NCBI GenBank assembly: GCA_903825305.1
Contig: CAIKAC010000005.1
Span: 62,001 to 126,000 of the forward strand
Direction of reading: 5' to 3'
Source of the DNA: an uncultured Actinomycetes bacterium
Lineage (GTDB): Bacteria; Actinomycetota; Acidimicrobiia; Acidimicrobiales; RAAP-2
Length of the DNA: 64,000 nucleotides
Every line of letters begins with the position of its first letter. The stretch's first letter is position 1. A model generated the notes under the pieces. The model was not told the DNA's origin and made no database searches. It worked only from the letters and a program-made list of their open reading frames with translations. Below, one piece after another: positions 20,112-57,552 of the stretch. A program made the translations under genes and the position numbers.

Positions 20112-20432
20112 TTGCGGCACTACGAAGCCGTCATCATCTACGACGTTGCCGTCGAGCCCCAGGCCATTCAGGCCAGTCTCGACAAGGCACTCGACACCAT
20201 GCGGGCCAACGAAGGCGTTCCCGGTGCTATCGACCGTTGGGGTCGTCGCGCATTTGCCTACGAGGTCAACCACAAGCGTGAGGGTTACTACGTCATCGTC
20301 TCGTTCACTGGCACCCCAGCGACCGTGGCCGAGCTGGACCGTTTCCTCGGTCTTGCTGACGAAGTAATTCGCCACAAGCTCATCCGCATCCCAGACAAGG
20401 TCATCGCCGCTCGCGCAGCGGTTTCGGCGTAA
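20112..20432 (+). CDS. rpsF: 30S ribosomal protein S6
   Basis: Small-subunit protein that pairs with S18. The 106-residue product starts with TTG at 20112 (MRHYEAVIIYDVAVEPQAIQ) after a GGGAGG site. It has the conserved RRAFAYEVNHKREGYYVIVSF core and normal length. It is the first gene of the rpsF-ssb-rpsR-rplI operon that encodes S6, SSB, S18 and L9. Confidence 0.97.
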   Translation: MRHYEAVIIYDVAVEPQAIQASLDKALDTMRANEGVPGAIDRWGRRAFAYEVNHKREGYYVIVSFTGTPATVAELDRFLGLADEVIRHKLIRIPDKVIAARAAVSA

Positions 20433-20441
20433 GGGATCACC

Positions 20442-20888
20442 ATGGCTGATAACACTGTCACCGTCGTGGGCAATGTGACCCGCGACCCAGAACTTCGGTT
20501 CACCAACAACGGTCAGGCGACTGCACAATTTGGCATCGCCGTTAACCGTCGTTGGCAGAACCGCCAGACCCAGGAGTGGGAAGAAGCGGTGTCATATTTT
20601 GACGTCGTGTGCTGGCGCGAAATGGCTGAGAACGTTTCTGAGTCGCTGACGAAGGGCACCCGCGTGGTCGTCTCTGGTCGTCTCGAGCAGCGTTCTTGGG
20701 AGACCCAAGATGGCGACAAGCGATCGAAGATCGAAATTGTCGCCGACGAGGTTGCACCGTCACTGCGCTGGGCAACCGCTTCCATCACGCGTAACCAGCG
20801 TGGAGACGCAGGCGGCTCACCCCGCGCTGCCACCACTCGCAGCACCCCTAACGAACCCGATTTTGACCGTAACGAGGAGCCCTTCTAA
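20442..20888 (+). CDS. ssb: Single-stranded DNA-binding protein
   Basis: OB-fold protein that coats single-stranded DNA during replication and repair; 148 residues. The N-terminus ([20 protein letters not shown]) and [23 protein letters not shown] are typical. The C-terminal tip DFDRNEEPF is an acidic tail of the kind that docks partner proteins. It lies between rpsF and rpsR, and the rpsR start follows its stop by 2 bases, so the four genes should be coexpressed. Confidence 0.96.
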
Positions 20889-20890
20889 CC

Positions 20891-21388
20891 ATGGCCCGTA
20901 ATAATGACCGAAACACATCAACGAGCTCAAAGCGCGCGCCCAAGGATCTTGGTCGCCGCATCAAGAAGAAGCCGTGCCAGTTCTGCCGTGAATCCAACAC
21001 CTGGATTGACTACAAGGACTTGAACACGCTTCGTAAATTCATGTCGGACCGCGGCAAGATCCGCGCCCGTCGCGTCACGGGTAACTGTGAGCAGCACCAG
21101 CACGACATCGCCGAGGCCATTAAGACCGCGCGCGAACTCGTGTTGCTGCCCTACACGCAGCGCACCACGACCGAGCGTGCCGGTGGCCGTGGTGGTCGAG
21201 GTGGCCGTGGTCGTGAAGACCGTGAAGGCACCCTCGAAGCAGTGCCCGAGACCAATGCTGGCAAGGACGTCGAAGTTCTTGACGCCGTGGTCGAGGAACT
21301 GATCGAAGAAGCCATCATCGAAGAGATCGTCGACGAAGTCGTCGAAGAGATCATTGAAGCTATTGAGGACGAGGAGGTGGAGGCGTAA
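20891..21388 (+). CDS. rpsR: 30S ribosomal protein S18 with long Arg-Gly and acidic C-terminal extension
   Basis: The first 90 or so residues are S18 ([39 protein letters not shown]). It is a zinc-type variant with Cys29, Cys32, Cys66 and His69. S18 is normally about 75-90 residues, yet this product is 165. Residues 97-110 form an R-G-G tract, and residues 114-165 are dominated by Glu, Asp, Ile and Val in a repetitive helical-looking pattern ([19 protein letters not shown]). The reading frame is open without interruption, and the TAA overlaps the rplI ATG by one base. The extension's role is unknown. Confidence 0.93.
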
Positions 21389-21837
21389 TGCAGGTACTCC
21401 TTCGTCAAGACGTACGTGGCGTTGGTCGCCGTGGCGACATCGTCGATGTTTCCTCGGGTTACGCCCGCAACTACCTCGTGCCTTCGGGTCTGGCTTTGGA
21501 AGCCACCGCTGGTATGGCAACGCAATCAGCGTCGATGAAGCGTGCTCGAGGCGCTCGCGATGCTCAGGACCGTGAGGCCGCCCAAGTTCAGGCAGCCACG
21601 CTCGGCGGTGCCGTCATTGGCATCTCCGCTCGCGCTGCTCAAGGTGGTCGCCTCTTTGGTTCAGTTAGCGAACTTGACATCGTCAAGGCCATTAAGGACC
21701 AAAAGGGCATCGAAATTGACGCTCACAAGGTCAACCTTGGTGAGCACCTCAAAGAAACTGGTAGCCACAGCGTCAGCATCGAACTGTTCGATGACGTCGT
21801 GGTCGCCGTGACTGTTGAGGTCATTGCTCAGGGCTAA
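21388..21837 (+). CDS. rplI: 50S ribosomal protein L9
   Basis: Large-subunit protein, 149 residues. The N-terminal domain reads [36 protein letters not shown], the family signature (quoted in parts: QVLLRQDVRGVGRRGD, GYARNYLVPSGLA). The C-terminal domain includes GRLFGSVSELDIVKAIKDQ. The ATG shares a base with the rpsR stop (TAATG), implying translational coupling. A strong intrinsic terminator follows 24 bases later. Confidence 0.97.
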   Translation: MQVLLRQDVRGVGRRGDIVDVSSGYARNYLVPSGLALEATAGMATQSASMKRARGARDAQDREAAQVQAATLGGAVIGISARAAQGGRLFGSVSELDIVKAIKDQKGIEIDAHKVNLGEHLKETGSHSVSIELFDDVVVAVTVEVIAQG

Positions 21838-21860
21838 TCGAGCAACAGCTCTAGCTAGAA

Positions 21861-21897
21861 GGACCGGGGGCCAGAAGGCCCCCGGTCCTTTGTTTTT
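21861..21897 (+). terminator. Intrinsic terminator of the rpsF-ssb-rpsR-rplI operon
   Basis: A perfect 12-bp GC-rich stem, GGACCGGGGGCC (21861-21872) and GGCCCCCGGTCC (21877-21888), with tetraloop AGAA and a following TTTGTTTTT tract. It is placed 24 bases after the rplI stop. Confidence 0.95.
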
Positions 21898-57478: not shown

Positions 57479-57552
57479 TGGAGCGGGCGACGGGAATCGA
57501 ACCCGCGTATTCAGCTTGGGAAGCTGATGTTCTGCCATTGAACTACGCCCGC
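57479..57552 (-). tRNA. glyT: tRNA-Gly (anticodon CCC)
   Basis: On the minus strand the sequence starts GCGGGCGTAGTTCAATGGCA, has anticodon stem TCAGC/GCTGA around loop TTCCCAA (anticodon CCC), T-arm CGGGTTCGATTCCCG, and acceptor end CGCCCGC with discriminator T and an encoded CCA (57481-57479). All four arms are intact. It reads codon GGG. Confidence 0.95.

Follow-up and report, generated by a model that had tools for sequence, protein, structure and literature searches.

bS18 belongs to the core proteins of bacterial ribosomes and is small and otherwise compact. The Mycobacterium protein (84 residues, PDB 5v93 and others) is homologous to the core of the S18 described here, with residues 11-90 aligning, and differs from it in having no tail; the best 60 of 75 PDB matches are chains of 52-104 residues. 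Flexible extensions of other ribosomal proteins are already known in Actinomycetota (PMC10085706). The disordered extensions of Cutibacterium acnes (uS5, uS9, bS16, uL22, uL4 and others) are likewise actinobacterial, lineage-specific and flexible, some of them near the mRNA path, and bS18 is not among the extended proteins named in the accessible part of that report (PMC10085706).

Three further systems offer partial likenesses, as far as the accessible parts of the reports describe them. Hfq has an arginine-rich RNA-contacting part and a disordered acidic C-terminal end, the tip of which mimics nucleic acid and is proposed to screen the protein itself (PMC5606850). The basic-then-acidic layout that such screening would need is found in S18 tails, a possible likeness of mechanism; the two proteins are not homologous, and in bS18 the arginine part lies within the tail itself. 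The E. coli bS6 tail, with its RimK glutamylation, is likewise an acidic tail at the bS6-bS18 place on the platform (PMC10931766); it belongs to another protein, and 27 of 106 S18 tails end in Glu. In the Bacteroidia pocket of bS21, bS18 and bS6, bS18 is likewise part of a site that handles the 16S 3' end (PMC9976891, PMC8710568), which in F. johnsoniae occupies a groove formed by bS18 and the C-terminal region of bS6 (PMC10085706, PMC9976891). That pocket, as described there, involves no bS18 tail, and among 41 genomes of the tailed order none matched bS21 (PF01165; 6 of 14 controls positive). No paper on a bS18 tail was found in the open-access literature, a scope outside which most subscription papers fall.

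The gene studied here lies in a 64,000-nucleotide stretch, called the window below, of a genome of the order Acidimicrobiales in class Acidimicrobiia. The gene order is rpsF-ssb-rpsR-rplI, followed by a strong terminator-like hairpin and then dnaB (Table 1). The rpsR gene (20891-21388) encodes 165 residues, with a core up to about residue 91 and a tail of 74 residues.

Table 1. Features of the rpsR operon, in window coordinates.
Feature	Position	Strand	Remarks
rpsF (bS6)	20112..20432	+	106 residues, TTG start as listed; PF01250, TIGR00166; bS18 assembly partner
ssb	20442..20888	+	148 residues, C-terminal end NEEPF
rpsR, bS18 core	20891..21163	+	residues 1-91; tailless relatives stop within a few residues of 91
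rpsR, joint TTTER	21164..21178	+	residues 92-96
rpsR, arginine/glycine (RGG) tract	21179..21223	+	residues 97-111, the RGG units at 98-108; 9-base repeat unit in the DNA
rpsR, acidic part	21224..21385	+	residues 112-165; EE-hydrophobic-hydrophobic repeat
AGGAGG, rplI ribosome-binding site within the final rpsR codons	21372..21377	+	
rplI (bL9)	21388..21837	+	one-base overlap with rpsR
Terminator-like hairpin	21858..21891	+	15 pairs, then a T run; operon end

The whole core was matched above curated cut-offs, by PF01084 on residues 36-86 (79 bits, cut-off 21) and by TIGR00165 on residues 24-90 (92.7 bits, cut-off 38.75), and the operon also fits the rpsF-(ssb)-rpsR-rplI arrangement of the bS18 family. 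The preliminary description had reported a 165-residue S18 in which an RGG tract and then an acidic region follow in frame, overlapping rplI by one base. All of this was confirmed from the open reading frame, where the last A of the rpsR TAA stop (21386-21388) is the first base of the rplI ATG (21388), giving TAATG. The AGGAGG of rplI sits 10 bases ahead of its start and overlaps the codons of the last few Glu residues, so these are partly dictated by it. A mere ribosome-binding site accounts for those few residues and not for the other ~65 of the tail; a GAGG-like or better purine run occurs near the gene end in 92 of 103 tailed genes and is absent from the other 11, the spacing to the start being unscored. 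Terminator-type hairpin patterns numbered 3, as against 2.3 ± 1.6 in shuffled sequences, and the stem at 21858-21891 is by far the longest. An autoregulatory RNA before rpsF was also considered: the Rfam scan gave no leader-motif match at gathering score there, its nearest candidate being at chance level (E 0.54), and unlisted variants fall outside what Rfam tests. Across the window, Rfam reached gathering score only once, for a tRNA at 57482-57552 on the minus strand.

We aligned 34 S18 sequences: our own and those of 33 Acidimicrobial loci, out of a set of 36 from which L098 was dropped because it extends past its contig end, and L111 and L123 for doubtful starts. C29, C32, C66 and H69, which we take to be the zinc-ligand residues of bS18, are invariant in all 34. 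The CxxC pair and the further Cys and His are thus kept, in agreement with the earlier assignment as a zinc-type S18, and the protein is, as expected, a predicted zinc-type (C+) bS18. A second, zinc-free S18 was rejected, since a protein search of our own assembly (97% complete) gave a single S18 match. Conservation extends past the usual end of S18, because T89, Q90, R91, T92, T94, E95, R96 and R100 are also invariant in the 34 sequences.

The preliminary description proposed looking for the tail in S18 of related genomes. S18 genes were gathered from 171 genomes, with 20 further ones from other Actinomycetota, the survey remaining within this phylum. The tail proved to be a constant feature of one branch: 106 of its 109 S18 genes, from 37 families of Acidimicrobiia, carry 42-111 residues past the LLPY motif, and the remaining three are either truncated at a contig end or broken. 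At order level the tail is found in 78 of 81 genes, the exceptions being two that leave their contig and a broken one. Elsewhere in the class it occurs in 28 genomes of 10 families, while 35 genomes of 12 other families have 3-24 residues past LLPY. Cut genes aside, no family mixes tailed and tailless S18. The stop codon lies inside the fetched stretch in 104 of the 106 tailed genes, and small genomes of ~1.6 Mb also keep the tail. Outside the class we took 47 of 176 matches, made up of the 27 best-scoring and 20 chosen, among the matches listed, for open frames long enough to hold a tail. The former have 3-14 residues past LLPY and the latter at most 25. Two sequences whose alignment stopped early (G304 and G273, at 88 and 78 residues) were read by eye and end in LLPYVVR and LLPYVAS, respectively. 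In family f33, 22 of 23 matched genomes were left out (their open frames span 96-108 residues, apart from one that breaks off at 60), and G013 and four genomes of the class gave no S18 match. Outside the tailed branch, the S18 ends of G282 (L266; 25 residues), G312 (L270; 20) and G075 (L182; 24) are Arg/Gly-rich and have no acidic part; they are possible independent beginnings of a similar tail.

We inferred a quick IQ-TREE phylogeny from concatenated bS6, SSB, S18 core and L9 of 101 of the 171 genomes (at most three per family of the order, five per other family, and 14 others), leaving the cut genes of G037 and G048 unscored. The tree shows one change of tail state. SH-aLRT, the one support measure used, gives the split between tailed and tailless members 94, just below the level of 95 starred by the program. 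The tree has two weak points: G158 and G272, both on long branches, group together in a suspicious way, and no single branch quite separates the outgroup from the rest. Given the single change on the tree and the tailless outgroups, the tail was probably gained once, in the ancestor of one branch of Acidimicrobiia, and then kept. Read-through of a stop codon into the downstream spacer is not favoured as its source, because tailless relatives mostly have no rpsR-rplI spacer: their rpsR overlaps rplI by four bases in 21 of 35 members of the class.

A frameshift or assembly error, which the preliminary description had set down beforehand as the case against a real tail, was rejected as extremely improbable. 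The same frame and general plan recur in 106 separately assembled genomes, and the differences have a protein-like codon pattern: between our gene (G000) and that of a congener (G001), tail differences at codon positions 1, 2 and 3 number 6, 4 and 30. For this pair pS and pN are 0.50 and 0.09 in the tail, and 0.37 and 0.03 in the core. Pooled over 34 overlapping pairs, the corresponding values are 0.58 and 0.22 in the tail, and 0.45 and 0.09 in the core; selecting the pairs at ≥60% protein identity lowers pN. By these measures the tail is under clearly weaker constraint than the core, yet is read and selected as protein, and it looks like a genuine inherited C-terminal extension of bS18 rather than a sequencing error.

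The tails share a general plan in which a conserved joint is followed by an Arg/Gly part of varying length and an acidic end. Across 106 tails, position LLPY+3 holds R in 104, position +6 holds T or S in 94, and position +8 holds R or K in 101. Tested against 500 shuffles of each tail, the order of charges, arginine first and acid last, is stronger than in the shuffled tails in 100 of 106 cases (p<0.05), and in 88 at p<0.01. The first 30 residues are net positive in 98 tails and the last 30 net negative in 105; divided into halves, 87 of the 106 are net positive and then net negative and 19 are otherwise. As the 106 tails share ancestry, these charge counts are not independent. Arginine is strongly preferred over lysine (R:K of 903:79 in the tails vs 1439:1000 in the cores), to which base composition may contribute in part. 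At least two RG/GR units are present in 82 of the 106 tails, our own having repeated RGG/RG units, and many tails contain repeated peptide units of the RGD type. The tail drifts fast in sequence and length, while its charge order is nearly constant.

This drift bears on the view that the tail is tolerated growth, that is, that slippage in one ancestor spread charged low-complexity tails over several of its ribosomal proteins, and that these tails persist as near-neutral ballast that needs only to be soluble. The range of 42-111 residues, the short DNA repeats and the repeated units such as RGD are what this view would lead one to expect, as are the lengthening of uL22 and bS6 on the same branch and the short RG-rich ends that occur elsewhere (25, 20 and 24 residues in G282, G312 and G075). 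It fits poorly with the lack of any observed loss: 106 of 109 genes, from 37 families, retain the tail (the other three being unreadable), even in genomes of ~1.6 Mb. It also fits poorly with the kept charge order and with the pooled tail pN/pS of 0.22/0.58, given the overlapping pairs and identity threshold mentioned above. We regard it as a serious rival, if a fairly unlikely one.

A single AlphaFold run on 34 sequences yielded no confidently folded tail (mean pLDDT 56.9); it models a helix at residues 123-164 of our own protein, but a pLDDT of about 50 does not count as evidence of folding. An acidic helical end could serve as a docking site that recruits a protein to the ribosome, such as an RNase, a factor or the transcription machinery, and the alternation of EE with hydrophobic pairs in our own acidic part, together with an EEIIEE run in the distant G146, would suit such a role. 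No part of the tail is less conserved than the acidic end, however, and such a helix-like repeat is missing from most relatives, so that we consider docking quite improbable.

The suggestion that the tail acts on the SSB encoded in the same operon found no support in gene order. It drew on gene neighbourhood only, and the ssb neighbour does not track the tail: it is present in 34/34 tailless loci of the class (with rplI in reach) and 27/27 tailless loci of other Actinomycetota, as against 104/106 tailed loci. The SSB moreover keeps an acidic EEPF tip of its own, and such an action is very improbable. In the tailed branch most SSBs end in EEPF, as against PDEAPF in 26 of 34 tailless members of the class, which makes the tip a second marker of the split.

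A ribosome-associated binding arm, the platform idea put forward in the preliminary description, would be the best reading of the tail, and we retain it because the tail is carried by the only S18 found in this genome, is kept in 37 families and is constrained as a protein. In its specific form, which we advance tentatively as possible by analogy with the systems above, the tail would be tethered to the 30S platform as an arm that contacts RNA and is screened by the acidic residues at its own end, in ribosomes that lack bS21. Its retention after a single probable gain, the charge order, the preference for Arg over Lys, the conserved joint residues, the low pN relative to pS in the nearest pair and the lack of bS21 matches count in favour of this form. 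bS18 would sit beside bS6 on the platform, close to where mRNA leaves and the 16S rRNA 3' end lies, and the joint would lead the chain away from the S18 core. The RG-rich part could then contact the mRNA leader or the 16S 3' tail weakly, while the acidic end, as a nucleic-acid mimic, would compete for the tail arginines and keep binding weak and reversible; it might also keep free S18 from sticking to RNA. Such an arm could stand in for contacts made elsewhere by bS21 and by a long bS6 tail. An S1 protein is present, with four S1 domains in one frame. No 16S rRNA match was found in our own assembly (1.94 Mb in 27 contigs; 9 of 14 controls positive), which leaves the anti-Shine-Dalgarno end unreadable.

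Simple compensation for the bS6 tail or bS21 is weakened by the fact that bS6 is itself somewhat longer in the tailed branch, extending a median of 18 residues (range 7-91) past its IRIP motif, vs 2 in tailless genomes, where the maximum of 104 belongs to the mis-scored G093. A VYGPPK-like motif is seen at the bS6 ends of several families outside the order. As to bS21, the tailless sister families probably also lack it, and other Actinomycetota are known to have neither bS21 nor a bS18 tail, so its loss is not specific to the tailed branch. In the accessible part of the C. acnes study, C. acnes and M. smegmatis are described as lacking bS21, and the 40-residue E. coli bS6 tail as missing in C. 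acnes (PMC10085706).

By sequence comparison, the S18 tail is one of several ribosomal tails that lengthened on the same branch. All 13 tailed genomes compared (our own plus 12 of the class) have a long uL22 tail, as against 0 of 18 tailless ones, which have 5-18 residues. Six genomes missed by the search pattern were read individually: G071, G080 and G069 (5 residues each), G068 (139), G157 (about 100) and G160. Our own uL22 (L222:2738-3439) has 233 residues, with a tail that is arginine-rich and then acidic; in G106, G146 and G157 the ends are lysine-rich, a plan that differs from that of the S18 tail. In uS3 (our own at L222:3439-4395; L224-L253), read by eye, the ends in tailed genomes (…KEADPELERLLAEEEEIERR…) differ in kind from the LIEAGGGKR repeats of tailless ones. 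uL22 lies far from the 30S platform, and its parallel tails suggest a general cause. Together with the 19 of 106 tails that lack the positive-then-negative halves and the lack of a confident fold, they speak against the platform arm. The S18, uL22 and bS6 changes, all on one branch, amount to one statistical event (n=1). A broader proposal, in which an arginine arm with an acidic brake on bS18 handles the 16S 3' end and leaving mRNA in a clade-specific initiation without bS21, with coordinated uL22 and bS6 tails, is in our judgement unlikely.

The parallel uL22 tails would likewise be explained if the tail were an aid to assembly or solubility, whereby, in free S18 or the S6-S18 pair, the acidic end folds onto the RG tract and the basic core and blocks wrong RNA until 16S rRNA is met, with no role in the finished ribosome. 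The negative median net charge of the tails (-8), with the acid end last, is consistent with this, as is the assembly of bS6 and bS18 as a heterodimer that also binds its own mRNA leader, according to the accessible part of the report (PMC10931766). It leaves unexplained why the joint and arginine tract are the best-kept parts of the tail, and no leader motif listed in Rfam was found before rpsF. This other serious rival to the platform arm we judge somewhat unlikely.

In one probable step, then, bS18 was nearly doubled in length in this branch of Acidimicrobiia, and it was apparently never reduced again. The tailless sister group, the single origin and the near-constant charge plan together would provide a clean natural experiment on whether charged disordered tails of ribosomal proteins are functional or tolerated.
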